Shown piece by piece: positions 2,429 through 12,241 of a stretch of 12,737 nt of DNA. A program made the position numbers and the translations under genes. This stretch comes from Deltaproteobacteria bacterium (GTDB taxonomy: Bacteria; Desulfobacterota; DSM-4660; Desulfatiglandales; Desulfatiglandaceae). Each line of letters opens with the position of its first letter. Position 1 is the stretch's first letter. The notes beneath the pieces are model-generated. The model did not search any database. It was not told the origin of the DNA and saw only the letters and a list, made by a program, of their open reading frames with translations. The DNA lies in contig JAGHDR010000104.1 of NCBI GenBank assembly GCA_021159825.1, positions 1 to 12,737 of the forward strand. The letters are read 5' to 3'.

Positions 2429-2716
2429 TCAGTTGGGAATAACCCTCTTTTCCTGTTCGATTCTTTCATGAAGCCAGGCAGCCATAAGCTGTGTGTGGGG
2501 GATACCCTTTTTGCGAGCAAGGCGTTTTACCATTGAGAGGTCAAATGGATCTAAACGAATAGATACCGGCCGGCGCGGAGGTCGTGGGATATTAAAGGCC
2601 TCTGCTTCGTTGAGATGTTGTTCAATAGCCTCGGTGCTTTCACCGGCAATCAACTTGTCCCAAGCCTTTGCTTCTTCATTGAGATCTTTCACGATTTCTT
2701 TTGGGAGCCTGGTCAT
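2429..2716 (-). CDS. Antitoxin, BrnA/CopG-type ribbon-helix-helix protein
   Basis: This is a 95-residue protein with an acidic, helical N-terminal half (MTRLPKEIVKDLNEEAKAW onwards) and a C-terminal ribbon-helix-helix segment, RPVSIRLDPFDLSMVKRLARKKGIP and TQLMAAWLHERIEQE shown in two parts. This is the layout of CopG-type antitoxins that accompany BrnT-like toxins: the DNA-binding part represses the operon and the other half blocks the toxin. The ATG at 2714-2716 overlaps the toxin stop codon (ATGA). An AAGGA ribosome-binding sequence lies inside the end of the toxin gene, so translation is coupled. Toxin-first order is typical of brnTA. The family assignment comes from motif and context. 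Confidence 0.85.
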   Translation of the reverse strand: MTRLPKEIVKDLNEEAKAWDKLIAGESTEAIEQHLNEAEAFNIPRPPRRPVSIRLDPFDLSMVKRLARKKGIPHTQLMAAWLHERIEQEKRVIPN

Positions 2717-3033
2717 TTTTTTATCCTTCTAAAATAAACCTTTTTGGTAGAATCGGACATGGGAAAAGCGGTAACGCATCGCCATAAATTGTATTTGGGG
2801 TATGGGGCCACAATTGCCTCGATGCAAAACCCGGATGCATCCATTCCCCAAAGCCGATACCTATACTCTATGGTGTTTCCCCGATTCTTTAGGTTTTTCA
2901 GAGCAAATGTCGGAAAGGGACCTTCGCCGTAGTAAACCTCTTCCACTTGCTCGGGCCGTATGCCATGGAGGTCAATATGCCTGACGTTGTCTTCATCCCA
3001 GTCAGGTTCGAGGCGTTGATCGGCTTTAATCAT
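2713..3033 (-). CDS. BrnT/DUF497-like toxin of a type II toxin-antitoxin pair
   Basis: The product is a 106-residue basic protein that I assign to the BrnT-like (RelE-related) ribonuclease toxin group. Near the N-terminus DWDEDNVRHIDLHGIRPEQVEEV matches the family's opening (an E/D-W-D-x2-N pattern, then a helix with H-G-[IV]-x-[PE]-E-x-V-E-E-V). The C-terminal strands carry several arginines and a tyrosine (ITAFPM-type strand and KKVYFRRIKK) that would form the RNA-facing side. The middle (LKNRGNTIEYRYRLWGMDASGF) differs from classical BrnT, so this may be a distinct subfamily. Its stop overlaps the antitoxin start by four bases. It is preceded by a near-consensus promoter that places the predicted transcription start on the ATG. 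Confidence 0.78.
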   Translation of the reverse strand: MIKADQRLEPDWDEDNVRHIDLHGIRPEQVEEVYYGEGPFPTFALKNLKNRGNTIEYRYRLWGMDASGFCIEAIVAPYPKYNLWRCVTAFPMSDSTKKVYFRRIKK

Positions 3034-3899: not shown

Positions 3900-3920
3900 G
3901 TTCGTACATCGGGAGTTGCC

Positions 3921-4145
3921 ATGAGCTGCTATTTCAGACACATGAAGGATGTCCTGGAAGAGGCCGGGGTTGAAATCACCAAAGACAACAAGAGAGAGAT
4001 TGATCGTATCATCCACGGCCTGGTGGATATGGCCTATAAGGATTGCTCTTCTGCCTGGAAAAACGTCAAAGAGCGTATCAAGGCCGACGAAGCCGCAAGA
4101 GGTCAGTTTATCAAAAACCTGAAGAAGGAAATCAAAGCCCTGTAG
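3921..4145 (+). CDS. Small helical protein of unknown function (74 aa)
   Basis: The product begins MSCYFRHMKDVLEEAGVEIT and continues KDNKREIDRIIHGLVDMAYK, ending in a lysine-rich helix (FIKNLKKEIKAL). It is charged and almost wholly helical, with two cysteines (residue 3 and the CSSAWK segment) and no signal peptide or membrane helix. The pattern, with HMK near the start, NK-x-EIDR-x-IH in the middle and a conserved-looking C-x3-WK, is one I recall from small hypothetical proteins in anaerobes, but I cannot name a function. A GGGAG ribosome-binding sequence lies 5 bp upstream of the ATG. The next gene starts 24 bp after its stop with its own strong ribosome-binding site, so the two probably share a transcript. 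Confidence 0.8.
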   Translation: MSCYFRHMKDVLEEAGVEITKDNKREIDRIIHGLVDMAYKDCSSAWKNVKERIKADEAARGQFIKNLKKEIKAL

Positions 4146-4169
4146 CGGAATATTTTCGGAGGATCCTGA

Positions 4170-4793
4170 ATGGGAAATCGGGCAATTACCATGGTGATGG
4201 CATCATTTGCGGCTGATTCACTGGCACTCGGGGCCCATTGGATTTATGATACCCAGACCATCGAGGCTTATTTGGGAAGGGTGGACGCCCTCTTAAAACC
4301 GCAACCCGACAGCTATCATTCCACCAAAGCGCTGGGGGATTTCACCCATTACGGAGACCAGATGTTTGTACTGCTGGAATCCCTGACCGCCCAGAAAGGC
4401 TTTTCGCCGGGGGATTTTTCTACCCGTTGGAAAACGCTCTTCGAGAATTACAATGGCTATGTGGATCAAGCCACACAAGGCACACTGGCCGGATACGATT
4501 CGGGAAAGGGTCCGAAAGGCGGCGGTTCCCCATCCGACGACCTGGCCGGTGCCGCCCGCATTGCCCCGCTGGTTTATGCGTACTCGGATCACCTGGAAAA
4601 CCTGATTGATGCTGCGAAAACTCAGACACAAATGACCCACACCAATCCCTTGACCGTGGAAAGCGCTGCCCGAGGCGTGGTGGTGGGGATGGTGCTGGGG
4701 GCCCATTCGGGTGATGAAAGCCTTCCCCTGGAATGGATATCCGTTTTGAACAAGGAACAGCAGATTGCCCGGATGTTAAAACAGCTTCGTTAG
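4170..4793 (+). CDS. ADP-ribosylglycohydrolase / J1-crystallin-like protein, apparently shortened by an internal deletion
   Basis: This is a 207-residue member of the ADP-ribosylglycohydrolase family, enzymes that remove ADP-ribose from proteins or small molecules using two magnesium ions. The N-terminal half is well preserved: ASFAADSLALGAHWIYDT (11-28), FTHYGDQMFVLLE (58-70) with the metal-site aspartate of the first motif, SPSDDLAGAARIAPLV (120-135) and MTHTNP (155-160). After LTVESA (about 166) the sequence passes straight into ARGVVVGMVLGAH. In full-length relatives ARG-x3-GM-x-LGA follows the C-terminal GGDSA metal motif, so the intervening helices and that motif are missing. Loss of the second metal site predicts an inactive or altered enzyme. 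A GGAGG ribosome-binding sequence is 7 bp upstream of the ATG. Family identity is fairly sure; the deletion is inferred from recalled homologues. Confidence 0.8.
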   Translation: MGNRAITMVMASFAADSLALGAHWIYDTQTIEAYLGRVDALLKPQPDSYHSTKALGDFTHYGDQMFVLLESLTAQKGFSPGDFSTRWKTLFENYNGYVDQATQGTLAGYDSGKGPKGGGSPSDDLAGAARIAPLVYAYSDHLENLIDAAKTQTQMTHTNPLTVESAARGVVVGMVLGAHSGDESLPLEWISVLNKEQQIARMLKQLR

Positions 4794-4840
4794 GGGGTCT
4801 TGATCAATGGAGAAACCGCTCAAATTGTGCAACCCATTTT

Positions 4841-4870
4841 CCTCACGGAATCCGAAGGATTCTGTTGAGG
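4841..4870 (+). other. Hairpin downstream of the ADP-ribosylglycohydrolase-like gene
   Basis: Two perfect stem blocks, CCTCA/TGAGG (5 bp) and GAATCC/GGATTC (6 bp), are separated by a small internal loop and closed by a GAA loop. It begins 48 bp after the stop codon. The absence of a T-run makes factor-independent termination uncertain, and it may instead be a transcript-end stabiliser. Confidence 0.4.
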
Positions 4871-5086
4871 GTTTCTGAGATTAATTGGCCTTTTGAAAGA
4901 TGTTTTTCTGAATTCAGGAAACACTACCAACCCTCATGCCCGTTTGGGCAAAACGAATGATCAGGTTGGGGGATTTGCCCCCAGGTTTTCTATGTTGCGC
5001 AACTTCCAATTTTTGGAAGAAACCTGTCGGTTATGGGATATCGGATCGTTTTCAAATAAAAACCAAACATCTTGGAAATTTTGTCA

Positions 5087-5103
5087 TGGGTGCTTATTTG
5101 CAA
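5087..5103 (+). promoter_or_regulatory. Candidate sigma-54 promoter of the GAF-domain gene
   Basis: TGGGTGC-TTAT-TTGCAA has the invariant GG (5088-5089) and GC (5100-5101) with exactly 10 bp between them, and a good -12 element (TTGCAA). The -24 element departs from TGGCAC after the GG. The predicted start is near 5113, leaving about 29 bp to the ATG. Sigma-54 promoters need an upstream activator site. The short inverted repeat at 5003-5018 is a possible but unproven candidate. Confidence 0.4.
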
Positions 5104-5141
5104 GTGCTCGTTCATAAAACTTTTTGAGAAAGGAGGGCGCC

Positions 5142-5747
5142 ATGAAAAAGGAATTGATGAACTACGAAGCGATCTTGAAGGTGACAAGGGACATCGTTCA
5201 GACCAAGGATCCCGAAGAGGTTGCCCTGTTAACGGTGGAAAGCGTAAAAAGGGCATTGGAGGCCAAGGGATGTGCACTGCTTCTTTTTAACCGCAAAACC
5301 AGTGAATTGGAAGTTGCGGCTTCTTTTGGTTTGAGCGAGGAATACCTGAACAAAGGTCCCCTCAGCTCTCTGCAGTCCATTGCCGGGTCCTTAAAGGACG
5401 GCCCCGTGGCCATTACCGACGTGTCTGACGATCCGCGCATTCAGTATCCGGAAGAGGCCAGGAAAGAAGGGATTTCTTCGATACTTTCAGTGCCCATTGT
5501 TGTGGGAAAAAATCCCATTGGCGCATTGCGCGTCTATTCAGCGGAACCCTGGGAAGCAACCCTGGAGGATGTGAATCTGGTCCAGGCCCTGGCACAGATC
5601 TCCGGTATGGGTCTGGAGTTGGCCCGGATGTACAGGGGTCTCAAAAGCAGCATCGAAATCCTGAAATCCAACCGGCATCCGAAGGATTTGAAATCCAAAA
5701 AATGGACCCCCTACGAGGGTGTTCCAAAAAGTGTTGAAAAACCCTGA
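5142..5747 (+). CDS. Stand-alone GAF-domain protein
   Basis: This is a 201-residue cytoplasmic protein made of one GAF domain (roughly residues 8-162) and a basic C-terminal tail. The domain starts with a helix (LMNYEAILKVTRDIVQT), followed by strands CALLLFNRKTSELEVAASFG, a helix near SLQSIAGSLKDG, then VAITDVSDDPRIQYPEEARKEG. It ends with SSILSVPIVVGKNPIGALRVYSAE and a long helix. GAF domains bind cyclic nucleotides or other small ligands, or hold heme or iron. No output domain (kinase, GGDEF, AAA+, HTH) is attached, so it probably acts on a partner. The ATG at 5142 has an ideal AGGAGG ribosome-binding sequence (5131-5136), which rules out the in-frame TTG at 5124. It stands alone between a candidate sigma-54 promoter and a strong terminator. 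The ligand is unknown. Confidence 0.88.
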   Translation: MKKELMNYEAILKVTRDIVQTKDPEEVALLTVESVKRALEAKGCALLLFNRKTSELEVAASFGLSEEYLNKGPLSSLQSIAGSLKDGPVAITDVSDDPRIQYPEEARKEGISSILSVPIVVGKNPIGALRVYSAEPWEATLEDVNLVQALAQISGMGLELARMYRGLKSSIEILKSNRHPKDLKSKKWTPYEGVPKSVEKP

Positions 5748-5762
5748 TCTGTATGCAACAGC

Positions 5763-5793
5763 GTACCGTCAGGTTCGGTACTTTTGTTTTTTT
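5763..5793 (+). terminator. Rho-independent terminator of the GAF gene
   Basis: A perfect 6-bp stem (GTACCG/CGGTAC) with a 7-base loop is followed immediately by TTTTGTTTTTTT. It begins 16 bp after the GAF stop codon. The hairpin is symmetric, but no T-run lies on the other side, so it should act on plus-strand transcripts only. Confidence 0.9.
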
Positions 5794-5906
5794 GGGGTTA
5801 CCCAATACAAATCAAACCGTTTGGATCCGTCCGCTTCAGTTGAGGCTTCAAAGCTGTCGCAGTAGCGGGCGGGTCCAAAAAAAATGATGTTGTTCAAGAT
5901 CAATCT

Positions 5907-6416
5907 CTAAAACATTTCGGTCGGTGTTTCATTGGTGAAGACCCCCAGTTCATGCCCGGTTCGGTCATTGATGAATCGGGCGGCAAGTTCCATTCCCACC
6001 CGGTGGGTCATTCTGAGGGGCCAGGGATTATCCATGTCTATGGTGACATAAATTTTTTGCCCTTCTGCTCTTTCAATCAACCCCTGAATTACTTTTCCGC
6101 CGATTCCCATGCCCCGGAATTTCGGATCAACCGCCGTATATCCTCGTTCCAGGTAATTGGAAAGATCGAGTCCGGTTTCAGTTTCAATCTTTTTCAGGTA
6201 ACGCTCTTTGGGATATTTGTGGGTGGAGGTGCCAACCACCCGATCTCCGCAAAGAGCATAACCGATCAGGAAGGCTTTTTGAAGGTTCTCTTTTACCCAA
6301 AAAGTGCCCACGCTGCCGCCGTATGCCACAAGATCGCTGATCTGATCCAGAACGGCTTCAGGTGTTCCATCCGGTGGGGTGAAGCAATAACGGACTTCCA
6401 TACTGGGTCCCAGCAT
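5907..6416 (-). CDS. GNAT-family N-acetyltransferase
   Basis: This is a 169-residue acetyltransferase, predicted to move an acetyl group from acetyl-CoA to an amine. The acetyl-CoA pyrophosphate loop R-G-M-G-I-G (motif A, R/Q-x2-G-x-G/A) is clear in DPKFRGMGIGGKVI, followed by a helix and the strand IYVTIDMDNPWPL. The N-terminal part (VRYCFTPPDGTPEAVLDQIS) is distinctive but I cannot link it to a substrate. Several starts are possible: a TTG at 6458 that would overlap the hdrA stop by 14 bp, the ATG at 6416 chosen here, and an ATG at 6401. None has a strong ribosome-binding sequence. It lies 28 bp after hdrA on the same strand and is probably read from the hdr transcript. Whether it modifies the complex is unknown. 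Confidence 0.85.
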   Translation of the reverse strand: MLGPSMEVRYCFTPPDGTPEAVLDQISDLVAYGGSVGTFWVKENLQKAFLIGYALCGDRVVGTSTHKYPKERYLKKIETETGLDLSNYLERGYTAVDPKFRGMGIGGKVIQGLIERAEGQKIYVTIDMDNPWPLRMTHRVGMELAARFINDRTGHELGVFTNETPTEMF

Positions 6417-6444
6417 TTTTAAATCCGCAGTCCGCAATAAAAAA

Positions 6445-9400
6445 TCAGACGCAGTCAATCATACCCATGATCTGCGAGGTTTCAAAACCTTTGAGATGCA
6501 GGGCTCCGGAACGACAAGATGCCACACAGAGACCGCATCCCTTGCACAGGGTGGATTCGATCACGGCCTTGCCCGTTTTTTCATCCATCCTGGGAGCCGA
6601 ATAGGGGCAGATGGACACGCAAACCCCGCAACTGCTGCAGTTGAGCGGATTTACTTCTGCAACCGTACCGCTCACGGGCAGGCTTTTGGCCGATAAAAGT
6701 GTGACGGCTCGTGCGGCGGCGGCCTGGGCCTGCGCGATGCTTTCGTCGATGGGTTTTGGGGAGTGGGCCAGACCACAGACAAACACGCCGTCGGTGGCGA
6801 AATCCACGGGCCGCAACTTGACGTGGGCTTCCACGAAAAAACCGTCTTCGTTCTGAGCCACCTTGTAAAATTGGGACAGGGGGTTTTCTTTTTCCGGAAC
6901 AATGGCGGATGCCAGCACCAGAAGGTCTGCTTGAATGGTCACTTGTTTTCTGAAAACCGTATCCGTAAATTCGACTTCCACTTTCTCGTCGCGGGGTTCA
7001 ATTCTCAGTTCTTTCTCAAAATTGTAGCGTATGAAAGAGATGCCTCGGGTTCTTGCTTCCCGGTACAGATCTTCCCTGAGACCATAGGGCCTCATGTCCC
7101 GGTAAACCACATAGATGTGCATATCGGGGTTTCTTTTTTTCAGTTCCAGTGCGCTTTTGATGGACTGGGTGCAGCATACTTTGGAACAGAAGGGTCGTTC
7201 CGGAATACGAGAGCCGTAGCACTGGAGGAAAACGGCTGTGCTGAGTCCATTAAGCCGGCTGTCCCCTTTGTTAAACCCCTGCTGTAATTGAAGTCCGGTC
7301 ATCACCCGGGAAGATTCGATGAGGGCAGGATCCTCAGGACTATGTTCGGATGCTCCCGTCGCCATGATGGTAACACCATGCTCCAAGGTTCGGCTTTCCT
7401 GTCCTTGCATAATGGTGGTTTTGAAGTTTCCCACAAAGCCATCCACGTCGGTAATTTCAGCACCCAGGCAAACCTCCACTTTGTCCGCCGTTTCCATTTC
7501 CCGGGTCAGCTCTTGAAGATAACCTTGAATATCCTCTCCCCGCCATGTTTCGTGCAGGGATCGGGCGTTGCCCCCCAGTTTCCCATCACGCTCCACGAGG
7601 TAAGTAAAATATCCCTGTTCAGACAGGTTCTTGGCGGTCTCCATACCGGCCACCCCGCCGCCGATCACCAGCGCGTTCTGGTTGACGTTGAGAATGGGCT
7701 CCGGTAGAGGTTCCAGCAATCCCGCTTTGGCCACCGCCATCCGCACAAGGTCCTTGGCTTTTACCGTGGCAGCCTCGGCATCATCCTTATGCACCCAGGA
7801 ACACTGGTTCCGAATGTTGACCATTTCAAAAAGATATTTGTTAATCCCGGCGCTGGTGAGGGTATCCTGAAAGAGCGGTTCATGGGTTTTGGGCGTACAG
7901 GCCGCTACCACCACCCGATTAAGCCCTTGCTCCTGGATGACCTCACCCATTTTGACCTGGGTATCCTGGGAACAACTGAACATGTTTTGCTCGGAAAACA
8001 CCACACCGGGCAGACCCTTTGCAAACTCCACCACCGCCGGTACATCCACAACGCCGGCGATATTGGTGCCGCAACAGCATACGAAAACACCGATACGCGT
8101 CGCATCCCCTCTGATATTTCGTTCCTCGGGAATCTGGGCTTTCCGGGTCAAAGACCAACGGGCCTCGGAAAGGAGACTGCCGGCCACCCCTGCCGCCGCA
8201 CTGGAATCCACCACTGACGAGGGGATATCCTTTGGCGCCTGACAGGCACCGCAGGCAAAAATACCGGGAGTAGCGGTTTCAACCGGTTTAAAACTGCCAG
8301 TGCTCACAAAATTATAGCGGTTCAGTTCCAAACCCAGTTTTTCGGCCAGCGCCCGTCCTTCGGCCGTGGCACCGAGCCCCACGGACAGCACCACAATGTC
8401 AAAGGCCTCTTCCACCCTTAGGCCTTGTTCATCAACATAGCGGATCAGGCTCATGCCGGACTCTTTATCCGGAACAATATTCGTTACCCGCGACTTTACA
8501 AACCGAACGCCCGCCTCATCTTTGGCGCGGTTGTAATATCTCTCAAAGTCTTTTCCGTTGGTGCGGATATCCATGTAAAAGATGGCCGCATCCAGGTTGC
8601 CGCCCGCGTGCTCCTTGGCCAGCATGGCCTCTTTGACGGCATAGGTGCAACAAACGCCCGAGCAATACCCTCGGCCTTCCAGATGTTCATCCCGGGAGCC
8701 TACGCACTGCAGCCAGGCAATCTTTTCCGGTTCTTTCTTGTCCGACGGTCGTACCATGTGCCCGCCGTAAGGTCCGGATGCGGACAGGATGCGCTCAAAC
8801 TCAAGGCTGGTGACCACATTCTTGTTTTTGCCGTACCCATAGGTGTCGTGGTCCAGAGGATTATAGGTTTCGCTTCCGGCGGACATGATCACCGCACCCA
8901 CGTTCAGATCAATATGCCGTTCCTTGTCTTCATAGTTAATGGCGTCGGCGGGACAGACCTCTTCACATTTTCCGCATTTTCCCTTGGTTAGTTTAATGCA
9001 ATACTCCGGGTCAATGGCATATTTCAGGGGAACGGCCTGGGCGTATTGCACATAAATTGCCTTCCGTTTTACCAGATTGGCATCATATTCGTTGGGCACC
9101 TTTTTGGGGCATTTTTCCGCGCAGGCCCCGCAGGCAATACATTTATCCATATCCACATAGCGGGGATGTTGCAGGATGCTCACCACAAAATTGCCCGCTT
9201 CCCCTTTAAGGGCGGTAACTTCTGAAAGTGTGAGCAACTCGATGTTGATGTGCCGGCCGACCTCGACCAGTTTCGGTGAGATAATTCACATGGCACAATC
9301 ATTTGTGGGAAAGGTCTTGTCCAATTGGCTCATCATGCCGCCAATGGAACTGGTTCTTTCCACAAGGTAGACGTAATATCCGGAATTAGCCATATCCAGT

Positions 9401-9465
9401 GCGGCCTGCATGCCGGTAATGCCACCGCCCACAATTAAGACGGAACCGAGTTTTTCTGTCGACAT
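6445..9465 (-). CDS. hdrA: HdrA-like FAD/iron-sulfur protein, predicted selenoprotein with in-frame TGA at codon 60
   Basis: This is the electron-bifurcating or electron-transferring flavoprotein of a heterodisulfide-reductase-type complex, 1006 residues if the TGA at 9286-9288 is read as selenocysteine. Residues 1-59 hold an FAD loop ([15 protein letters not shown]) and TFPTNDCAM. Sec60 is followed by [16 protein letters not shown] in the same frame. Cysteine is usual at this place in HdrA (DC-x-C-I-x-[ST]-P-K). Next come two ferredoxin clusters (C109/112/115/119 and C156/164/167/171), CVGSRD and YCSGVCC (254, 268-273), and [13 protein letters not shown] (about 463). A second FAD loop (602-607) and a second CYGSR/FCSKVCC block follow, then two C-terminal ferredoxin motifs (943-953, 974-984). 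ATG 9465 has AGGAG 6 bp upstream and starts 3 bp after hdrB. Without recoding, the gene would appear as a 59-codon stub plus a 930-residue ORF with a TTG start. Confidence 0.9.
9257..9288 (-). promoter_or_regulatory. Selenocysteine codon and bacterial SECIS-like hairpin in hdrA
   Basis: The TGA (9286-9288) is followed by a stem-loop that fits the bacterial SECIS plan. CCGA (bases +10 to +13 after TGA) pairs with TCGG (+26 to +29). C and T at +16 and +17 pair with A and G at +23 and +24. The apical loop is GGTCG, with GGTC at +18 to +21. In the E. coli fdhF SECIS the equivalent GGTC is at +19 to +22, by my own count from the remembered sequence. Folding was done by eye. Confidence 0.75.
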
Positions 9466-9468
9466 AAA

Positions 9469-10344
9469 CTACTCCTGCGTTATAAAAGAAGTGATGTTAT
9501 CTATAGCCACCTGGTTTTTTTCAAGACCCAAAGACTTTTCATCGACACCCATGCACAACCCCAGTAACTGAGCGTAAAGTATGGAGGGTAGAGCGTCTCC
9601 GGTCGCGCCATTGCTTGCCATCATGCTCTGAACCTGGTCAAACTGAAGCTGGCAATAGGGGCAGGCAGTGCATAGGAAATCCGCTCCTGATTCGCGACCG
9701 CTGTCCAGTTTCTTTTGGGTCAGATCCATGGAAACGCGGTCGTTTACGCCCATCAAAGGTGCGCCGCAGCAATTGAGTTTTTCGCTCCATTCCACGCTTT
9801 TTGCTCCCGTCGCCTTCACCAGTTCATCAAAGAGGGTCGGTGCCACCGGGTCATCAAACTGAGTCACTTTACTGGGACGCAAGGCATGGCACCCATAATG
9901 GGTGGCGATTTTGAGATCTTTCATTTTTCTGGAGATCTTTTTTTTCAGATTGTCCAAACCCACATCGTGGTACAAAACCGAAAGTAGATGTTTGACCTCT
10001 ACCTGCCCCCGATAAGACAGGTCTCTCGGTTTTAACATGTCATTAATTTCCCGGCGCAGCGTCTCATTACCCCCAAGGATGTATTGGGCCTCTTTCAGCG
10101 TACCGAAACAGCATTTACACAGGGCCATGATGTTGACACCATCACGTTCAGCCAGGGCGAGGTTCCCGGCTGCGGAGAGAAGATAGGCTTTCCGGTCAAT
10201 ATTCCTCAATGGGTAACCACAACAGGTGAAATCGCGATAATCGATCAGACCCACGCCCAGACGGGACATTACCGCACGGGAAGCAGTTTCATATTGTTCA
10301 AGCCGGGCAGGAATATTGCAGCCCAGAAAAAAAGCGTATTTCAT
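9469..10344 (-). CDS. hdrB: HdrB-like protein with two CCG domains
   Basis: This is the 291-residue catalytic-type subunit of heterodisulfide reductase complexes, which carries non-cubane [4Fe-4S] clusters for disulfide chemistry. Both cysteine-rich repeats are complete. The first is C9, C41-C42-G, C76-x2-C79; the second is C152, C192-C193-G, C225-x2-C228 (with an extra C231). No signal peptide or membrane helix is visible, so it is cytoplasmic. The ATG has a GAGGA ribosome-binding sequence. The gene lies 35 bp after the membrane subunit and 3 bp before hdrA, giving an operon in order membrane subunit-hdrB-hdrA. The true substrate in bacteria is unknown; candidates are small or protein disulfides. 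Assignment as HdrB rather than another CCG protein is supported by its operon partner. Confidence 0.93.
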   Translation of the reverse strand: MKYAFFLGCNIPARLEQYETASRAVMSRLGVGLIDYRDFTCCGYPLRNIDRKAYLLSAAGNLALAERDGVNIMALCKCCFGTLKEAQYILGGNETLRREINDMLKPRDLSYRGQVEVKHLLSVLYHDVGLDNLKKKISRKMKDLKIATHYGCHALRPSKVTQFDDPVAPTLFDELVKATGAKSVEWSEKLNCCGAPLMGVNDRVSMDLTQKKLDSGRESGADFLCTACPYCQLQFDQVQSMMASNGATGDALPSILYAQLLGLCMGVDEKSLGLEKNQVAIDNITSFITQE

Positions 10345-10379: not shown

Positions 10380-12128
10380 TTATGCAGCGGCCCCCTGCCG
10401 GGGACCCTTAATCGCTATATTCTTCAGCTGGTAAAGGATATCCGTTACTTCCACCAACTGGGGGCAGTGCTCCTGGCACTGATAGCAGGTTACACAATCC
10501 CAGATCATGCCAGCGCCACAGGCCATATCCGTGAGGCCAAGACCGAGGCAGCACATGATTTGGTGGGGCAGCAGCCCCAATGTCTCTTCAGGTTTTTCAC
10601 AAACGGCCACCACGGGACAAACGCTGGTGCAATTCTGACAGGCATAACAGGCTCTAAACGTCTCAGTGTCGTAAGGCAATGCTGCTTGAGATTCCGTACC
10701 GCCGTTAAAGTTCAGTGAATCGGTTTCCGCTGCACTGGGCCATCCCTTTGCAACCTCATGCCTGGCCAGTTCAAGGGGCTTTGCATAACCCTCAGTCGTC
10801 AAATTGGGTCGATTCAACCCTCTCACAAAGGAAAATCCGGAAAGCATCAGGGGGTCACCCGTTGCATCGCTCTGAATGAGACCCTCTCTCACATTGAGCC
10901 ACAGATCTCTTAAATTAATACCCGAAGGGCATACCACGGTGCATCGATCACAATTGGTGCAGATATAGACGCCTTCTCGAAGAGCCGTTCGTTCTGACGG
11001 GGAAAGGGCTTTTCCGGCGGCCAGCTTTCGGATGAATTGAAGCTTTTCCGACGGTAGGATGCAGTCGTTTCCAAGAGCATCGAATGCGGGGGATGAAGAA
11101 CATCTGAGGCTGCACGTGCCGCAATGGGTACAGGCATCCAGTTCCAGCATCTGGCGTGTCAGGATATTGGCGGGGTGAGACCGCTCTTTATCCATGACCG
11201 CATTGGCCATCAGGCTTAAGGGCGTTGCGATGATATGGAACATTTTGCTGAAGGGCAGGTAGGCCAACCCGATAAAACAGGCCAGGATATGGATGATCCA
11301 GAGAAAATATGCGGCTTCGGCATCATCAAGATACTGTGCCATGGGCCGCATCCCTTTTGAAAGGTTGAAACTGATGAATGCCCATTCCGGCACCGCGTGG
11401 CAACTCTGGCAGCTCATTTCATGAAGTTCTTGACCCTGGGTCAGGAGTTCCGTCTCAAAGGGGCCGGCCACCTTTGGGGAAACCACTCCGAATTCTTCAA
11501 CCCAAAAGGCTTCCAGTGCTCTCAACTCTTCGGCATCGTCCGTATCCGCGTACTCCTCCACCATGCGCTGAAACTCGTTATGGCTTATGATCTTGGCTCC
11601 TTCCAGGAAAAATCCGGTGATCATGATGATTGCCACAATCACAATGGCATAGAAGTCCATACCATTGGTCCGTAAGCGGGGAACCTTGAGGATGAAACGC
11701 CGGTACATGGCAATGGCCACGCCCGAAAAAACCATCAAACCGAACAGGTTTCTGAGAAAAAGATAGGGATTCGCCGTGGATGCGTAATCCTCGAAAAGAT
11801 TACTGCTGGTCCAACTTTCAAAGGCATGAATAAAAAGCAGCAGCATAAACCCCACAAAGATGAGCATATGCATGACCCAGCGCAGGGAATCTTCCTTGAG
11901 GATTCGCCGTTGCAGGATGACATCCAGTATCAGAACTTTCACCAGGGTCACGACCCGACCGCTGAAAATCACACCCAGAATGCCTTTTAGGACTTGGGAA
12001 ATTCTCTGCCCCGTTGAATAAGGGAGTTCCGGTCCGGTGATCTGTCGTGAAACCCAAGTGTAAGACTTGTAAGCAGATCCAACAATAAAGATTAAGAGAG
12101 ACCCGTACAGAAGCGAATCAAAAAACAT
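10380..12128 (-). CDS. Membrane subunit: NarI-like cytochrome b with inserted c-type heme site, fused to two HdrC-like iron-sulfur modules
   Basis: About 582 residues. Five membrane helices are predicted near residues 2-20, 83-101, 122-142, 158-176 and 271-292. Arginine- and lysine-rich loops (QRRILKEDSLRW, YRRFILKVPRLR) put loops 1 and 3 in the cytoplasm and the N-terminus outside. Histidines 87, 101, 280 and 298 are likely heme b ligands. The 90-residue loop between helices 4 and 5, which this topology places in the periplasm, contains CQSCH (240-244), a c-type heme motif. The cytoplasmic part has four complete C-x2-C-x2-C-x3-C motifs at 333-343, 390-400, 494-504 and 545-555, i.e. two HdrC-like pairs in tandem. 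A GTG at 12143 is the alternative start. The ATG at 12128 is preferred because GAGGA lies 8 bp upstream. It probably links menaquinone or periplasmic cytochromes to HdrBA. Its layout differs from QmoC (HdrC first, then HdrE). Confidence 0.88.
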   Translation of the reverse strand: MFFDSLLYGSLLIFIVGSAYKSYTWVSRQITGPELPYSTGQRISQVLKGILGVIFSGRVVTLVKVLILDVILQRRILKEDSLRWVMHMLIFVGFMLLLFIHAFESWTSSNLFEDYASTANPYLFLRNLFGLMVFSGVAIAMYRRFILKVPRLRTNGMDFYAIVIVAIIMITGFFLEGAKIISHNEFQRMVEEYADTDDAEELRALEAFWVEEFGVVSPKVAGPFETELLTQGQELHEMSCQSCHAVPEWAFISFNLSKGMRPMAQYLDDAEAAYFLWIIHILACFIGLAYLPFSKMFHIIATPLSLMANAVMDKERSHPANILTRQMLELDACTHCGTCSLRCSSSPAFDALGNDCILPSEKLQFIRKLAAGKALSPSERTALREGVYICTNCDRCTVVCPSGINLRDLWLNVREGLIQSDATGDPLMLSGFSFVRGLNRPNLTTEGYAKPLELARHEVAKGWPSAAETDSLNFNGGTESQAALPYDTETFRACYACQNCTSVCPVVAVCEKPEETLGLLPHQIMCCLGLGLTDMACGAGMIWDCVTCYQCQEHCPQLVEVTDILYQLKNIAIKGPRQGAAA

Positions 12129-12241
12129 GAACCTATTCCTCACTTACTCCACGAAAATAAGAGCGGCAGATCCGAATACCTTTTCAGTCTGCCTTGTTAG
12201 TGTGCCAAAAGAGTCTGACGCCATCCGCCAATAAGCGCACC

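Follow-up and report, generated by a model that had tools for sequence, protein, structure and literature searches.

Predicted selenocysteine in a fused double HdrA encoded beside hdrB and a membrane subunit in a deltaproteobacterial genome

Introduction

Selenocysteine (Sec) in HdrA is a kind of selenoprotein already known from related bacteria, and the gene described here is a further member. In the available part of PMC1794560, bacterial Sec-HdrA was tabulated in 2006 with 16 sequences, seven of them in Syntrophobacter fumaroxidans, and the accessible portions of two later papers report it in Desulfobacterium autotrophicum (PMC2702500) and Desulfococcus multivorans (PMC5109826). An earlier sequence-only reading of this DNA had named Sec-HdrA as known in Desulfobacterota, and for Deltaproteobacteria that has indeed been in print since 2006, as the part of PMC1794560 at hand shows. 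Like the Sec-HdrA proteins of Deltaproteobacteria and Firmicutes in that source, S. fumaroxidans among them, the present one is an HdrA from a deltaproteobacterium, with a UGA at a Cys position and a predicted bacterial SECIS element. Unlike the cases highlighted in the same portion of PMC1794560, which are hdrA-frhD-frhG-frhA operons with glpC, our hdrA follows a membrane subunit and hdrB. It also resembles HdrA1, HdrA2, HdrL1 and HdrL3 of D. autotrophicum HRM2, which are Sec-containing HdrA-type proteins of a sulfate reducer. The HRM2 loci differ, going by the available text of PMC2702500, in that hdrA and hdrL, except for hdrA4, are followed by mvhD, and in that the membrane type, HdrF, has its HdrC- and HdrB-like domains in one chain.

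The architecture of the protein has its own precedents. According to the part of PMC9012536 available, the N-terminal Fe-S cluster of an HdrA is coordinated by Cys197 of its partner HdrA, and fused or tandem HdrAs divide Cys197 and the N-terminal Fe-S domain between their halves. The HdrA3 and HdrA4 of ANME archaea and the MetFV-HdrABC of Moorella thermoacetica are described there with two halves, one with Cys197 and one with the N-terminal Fe-S domain, as here. In the ANME proteins, however, the domain-bearing half leads, while our protein begins with the half of the Cys197 type and is predicted to have Sec at that residue. The HdrA of the solved HdrABC structure, 5odc_A, has matching domains, Cys197 at the Sec position, and E356 and K409, which are kept in our protein; unlike it, 5odc_A is a single HdrA of 654 residues with Cys where our protein would have Sec. 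What is less usual here is that two fused HdrA halves are encoded in a membrane-anchored operon, and the Sec may therefore be a ligand to an Fe-S cluster of the other half. The titles and abstract openings of the literature searched, a scope outside which most subscription journals fall, do not state that Sec is an Fe-S ligand in HdrA.

Results

The window, that is the whole stretch of 12,737 nucleotides that was analysed, carries hdrA on its minus strand (6445..9465). From an ATG at 9465, with GGAG six bases ahead of it by eye, 59 codons including the ATG lead to an in-frame TGA at 9286..9288, and the same frame then stays open to the stop at 6445-6447, just as the sequence-only reading had described. 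With the TGA read as Sec the product is an HdrA of 1006 residues in which position 60 is encoded by the TGA. The 930-residue HdrA of that reading exists as an open reading frame 3' of the TGA, listed with a TTG start at 9237, but the whole product is the longer one. Were the TGA annotated as a stop and the gene begun at TTG 9237, this core electron-transfer protein would lose its first 76 residues, and with them the flavin-binding loop and the key residue.

The domain order of the product is that of a fused double HdrA: a thioredoxin-reductase-like half with a ferredoxin insert, an N-terminal Fe-S domain, a second thioredoxin-reductase-like half and a C-terminal 2x[4Fe-4S] domain. Pfam places FAD/NAD-binding motifs at about residues 8-47, before the TGA, a second flavin domain near 599-713, and several 4Fe-4S domains. 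A PDB search matched 5odc_A and four other distinct HdrA sequences with E values of 2.7e-158 or lower. The alignment with 5odc_A is gapless over residues 18-60 and sets its Cys197 opposite the TGA, which bears out the earlier claim of unbroken homology across the stop. Among NCBIfam models HdrA2 and HdrA score best, all under their curated cut-offs (NF040770, 954 against 1100 bits; NF041778, 751 against 1400; NF041891, 659 against 1300). By its sequence the protein is to be regarded as a homologue outside these narrow subfamilies, placed in the wider HdrA family by its domain content and its PDB matches.

The relatives compared are 80 loci, the best 80 of 177 confirmed stretches, with a best identity of 92%. 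A motif scan in which the residue at the site was left free in the pattern covered the window and loci L016 to L117. It yielded 99 sites, with TGA at 83 and a Cys codon at 16. Within the best 80 of the 177 loci there were 93 sites (77 TGA, 16 Cys) and no other codon at any of them; one locus of the 80, L067, had no site. The UGA is thus aligned with Cys of homologues within a CxxU motif, both in 5odc_A and at the 16 Cys sites, and Cys at codon 60 of homologues is what the sequence-only reading had wished to see confirmed.

A nonsense mutation or a sequencing error, leaving the gene broken or just the downstream 930 codons in use, would be the plainest account of an internal TGA: the standard code stops there and the TTG at 9237 offers a start. 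Against it, the TGA recurs at the same codon in many separate genome records of the best 80 loci, conservation with HdrA extends over the first 59 codons, whose lack of such conservation had been named earlier as grounds for giving up the Sec reading, and the synonymous positions of the hairpin are constrained in genes with TGA and not in those with Cys, as set out below. This explanation was rejected on the conserved TGA and the hairpin constraint in the relatives, and we give it practically no credence. In all likelihood, what looks like a gene split by a stop is a single gene whose stop codon is read as Sec.

Two more HdrA genes of the same genome, L017 (G000:C37:5433-8372) and L019 (G000:C138:5518-6627), have TGA at the same DCxx(U) site. 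The hairpin of the former is identical to that of the window gene, and the latter has the canonical domain order of a single HdrA. Among the relatives, locus L040, from the cultured strain NaphS2, shares both the TGA and the hairpin. A second SECIS sequence type was seen at PKM-type sites (L089 8682, L095 8648, L096 4154, L097 8743, L098 8652, L100 6165, L101 8657, L108 5003 and L116 8829), with a 7-bp stem GGATGTC/GACATCC and a GGTC loop. The PKM type is a tandem second HdrA, also with a TGA, which lies 3.5-3.7 kb behind the first and is open for about 510 residues.

The predicted bacterial SECIS hairpin lies at 9253..9270 on the minus strand, with its 5' arm at 9264-9270, the loop AGGT at 9260-9263 and the 3' arm at 9253-9259. 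The minimum-energy fold is CTGGTCG-AGGT-CGGCCGG (in RNA CUGGUCG-AGGU-CGGCCGG), at -10.2 kcal/mol, and the loop, at +23 to +26, begins 22 nt after the UGA. The hairpin proposed earlier, with GGTC as a loop at +18 to +21, was rejected because GGTC (9265-9268) is part of the stem, in the 5' arm of this fold. The SECIS model in the available part of PMC13188914 has a loop of 3-9 nt with a G among its first two bases, a stem of 4-16 bp, a spacing of 16-37 nt and a minimum free energy of at most -7.5 kcal/mol, and the hairpin conforms to it, with a loop of 4 nt (AGGU, G at position 2), a stem of 7 bp, a spacing of 22 nt and the energy given above. In our own implementation of that model as available, 71 of 79 TGA sites and none of the 16 Cys sites fitted; the eight TGA sites that failed include the same-genome paralogue on C138. 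As background, the same implementation accepted 12 of 991 codons in hdrA, the true site included, 0 of 276 in hdrB and 11 of 572 in the membrane gene. Rfam had no match at the hairpin site. The folding energy was no better than that of shuffled sequences (z -0.56, -0.78 and -0.91), so that the thermodynamic scores are uninformative and the evidence beyond chance is comparative.

For that comparison L016, L021 and L023, which repeat sites of the own genome, the site L103 5619, which is cut by a contig end, and the 11 PKM-type sites were left out, giving 69 TGA sequences, of which 65 are distinct, and 15 with Cys. The seven-pair stem is complete in 60 of the 65 distinct TGA sequences as against 1 of the 15 Cys sequences, and GG stands at loop positions 2-3 in 61 and 6 of them, respectively. 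Sliding the 3' arm lowered stem pairing in the 65 distinct sequences from 98.5% to 57.4% or less. Covariation in the same 65 was weak, one double change that 23 of 500 shuffles also reached, because the stem hardly varies. Synonymous invariance was scored over whole genes after rows under 800 residues (13 of 96 sites) had been removed. In the 68 TGA genes, the seven lowest entropies among 393 conserved degenerate codons (ranks 1-7) were those of codons 65-71, made up of the six hairpin codons 66-71 and the one before them. In the set of 15 Cys genes the same codons ranked from 60th to 360th of 406, the Cys genes being fewer and partly of one clade, in a contrast that ignores relatedness.

A FastTree tree of 83 HdrA rows, with the site column removed and midpoint-rooted, put Sec at the root and required six changes, whereas 500 shuffles of the labels gave a mean of 14.1 and a minimum of 11. 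By eye, Cys rows are nested in Sec clades, for example L052-L054, L056 and L061 beside L047, and in these five the 18-nt hairpin stretch is two to four changes from the Sec type. They are likely cases of Sec-to-Cys replacement with a decaying SECIS. The position of Cys rows inside Sec clades suggests that such replacement, with loss of the hairpin, has happened repeatedly.

The genome itself is 75.8% complete, in 420 contigs. A selB gene on C396, without internal stops, and a gene for tRNA-Sec (selC) on C402, with anticodon tca, were both above cut-off; the earlier reading would have been given up had these two been absent. Its call for the Sec machinery was answered in part, as selA appears only as a fragment at the end of C58, cut by the contig end (the first 126 of 455 positions, 112 bits, below cut-off), and a search of this incomplete genome gave no convincing selD, the single match having 67.9 bits against a cut-off of 125 and resembling weak second matches also present in relatives. 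Both selA and selD were above cut-off in all six relative genomes examined, each selD with one in-frame TGA. A second selB, beside the tRNA-Sec on C402, is above cut-off in part and carries a TAG and frame breaks; compared with the copy on C396 (L001), this broken gene (L002, L007, L009) may reflect decay of a paralogue, an assembly error or contamination. A dsrA gene on C332 was above cut-off, and the dsrA-bearing host is probably a sulfate-reducing, Desulfobacterales-like bacterium. A hydrogenase partner for HdrA was considered and rejected, as no NiFe(Se) large subunit was found in the own, incomplete genome.

Directly upstream of hdrA on the minus strand is an hdrB-like gene with CCG domains (9469..10344), and before it a gene for a membrane subunit of 587 residues (10380..12143), with a cytochrome-b-like region (Nitrate_red_gam), a CxxCH motif of the haem-c type before its last N-terminal helix, a Fer4_8 domain and a C-terminus resembling HdrC/QmoC. 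Among the 93 sites in the best 80 of 177 loci, HdrB is directly upstream at 34 (30 TGA, 4 Cys); in L047, L054 and L085 it is present but beyond the distance rule. Where HdrB and at least 3.2 kb of upstream sequence are present, the membrane gene is found as well in 24 of 24 cases, and of the 27 membrane ORFs in relatives that gave long matches, 26 have CxxCH. Since many other sites have more than 1 kb of upstream sequence and no such HdrB, the operon with hdrB and the membrane gene is a feature of one part of the family. The fusion of cytochrome b-like helices, CxxCH, ferredoxin domain and HdrC-like end is conserved together with hdrB-hdrA.

Elsewhere in the window, two small genes overlapping by four bases (2429-3033), one of them weakly CopG antitoxin-like and below cut-off, are possibly a toxin-antitoxin pair. 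An ADP-ribosylglycohydrolase-like ORF at 4170-4793 covers profile positions 3-165 of 287 and is possibly cut short, and a GAF-domain ORF lies at 5124-5747. No second selenoprotein was apparent by eye among the TGA-read-through ORFs of 3900-6500.

Discussion

The conserved TGA, the Cys homologues, the constrained hairpin, and selB with tRNA-Sec all support the interpretation made from the letters alone, that Sec is inserted in HdrA. It appears almost certain, as far as sequence comparison can tell, that hdrA encodes a selenoprotein: SelB carrying the Sec-tRNA(UCA) would bind the hairpin, and Sec would be inserted at residue 60. At any Sec UGA, termination is expected to compete with Sec insertion. 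The codon could then be thought of as a selenium-dependent switch, where termination at low selenium lets a short product, or one from downstream reinitiation, dominate. We consider such a switch very improbable, as inspection by eye of the 25 bases preceding TTG 9237, which is located 15 nt behind the hairpin, showed no ribosome-binding site.

As for its role, Sec60 would correspond to Cys197 of HdrA. Residues 456-626 align with residues 4-174, the N-terminal part, of 5odc_A, and C463, C465, C498 and C523 are present in 83 of 83 rows. The corresponding stretch of the second flavin half, 630-658, has no Cys in the window protein, and at none of its columns in the 83 rows does Cys rank with the three most frequent residues. 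The Cys197-type residue is thus found in the first half only and the N-terminal Fe-S domain precedes the second half only. Because of this division, and of the published role of Cys197, we lean towards Sec60 completing the [4Fe-4S] cluster of the second half's N-terminal domain, within a chain or between two chains. The description of the Cys as flavin-proximal, made earlier, is doubtful in this light, as the part of PMC9012536 at hand makes Cys197 a ligand of the partner's cluster.

It could also be that Sec60, instead of serving as an Fe-S ligand, forms a CxxU redox pair with Cys57, perhaps close to the flavin, as the sequence-only reading also suggests. The two positions do form CxxU, which is given as the HdrA motif in a table of the review PMC13188914, in the part available, and C57 is present in 83 of 83 rows. 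The trans ligation by Cys197, and the complementary arrangement of Cys197 and N-terminal domain in fused HdrAs, both in the accessible text of PMC9012536 and the latter repeated here, make the redox pair the rather unlikely choice, and ligation of the cluster by Sec60 is what we favour.

E356 and K409, which stabilise the FAD according to the available part of PMC12054007, have their equivalents in E224 and K278, found in 83 of 83 rows. The conservation of these residues, taken as the criterion for an electron-bifurcating HdrA, suggests that the flavin of the first half is bifurcating or confurcating. The membrane subunit probably anchors the complex, and electrons might be exchanged between the quinone/cytochrome pool, the substrate of HdrB, perhaps DsrC, and ferredoxin; for the substrates and the direction of this exchange our confidence is low.

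We tentatively propose, at a little short of even chances, that in a large group of Desulfobacterales a [4Fe-4S] cluster lying between the two halves of one fused HdrA chain has a selenolate as its completing ligand, within a membrane-anchored HdrAB complex with a cytochrome b/c and HdrC-like subunit, and that Cys has replaced this selenium ligand on several occasions while the SECIS decayed. What selenium does at an HdrA Fe-S ligand position could be tested with the related Sec and Cys forms of one operon, and if the proposal is true, such natural Sec/Cys pairs would let the effect of selenium on a bifurcation relay be measured.
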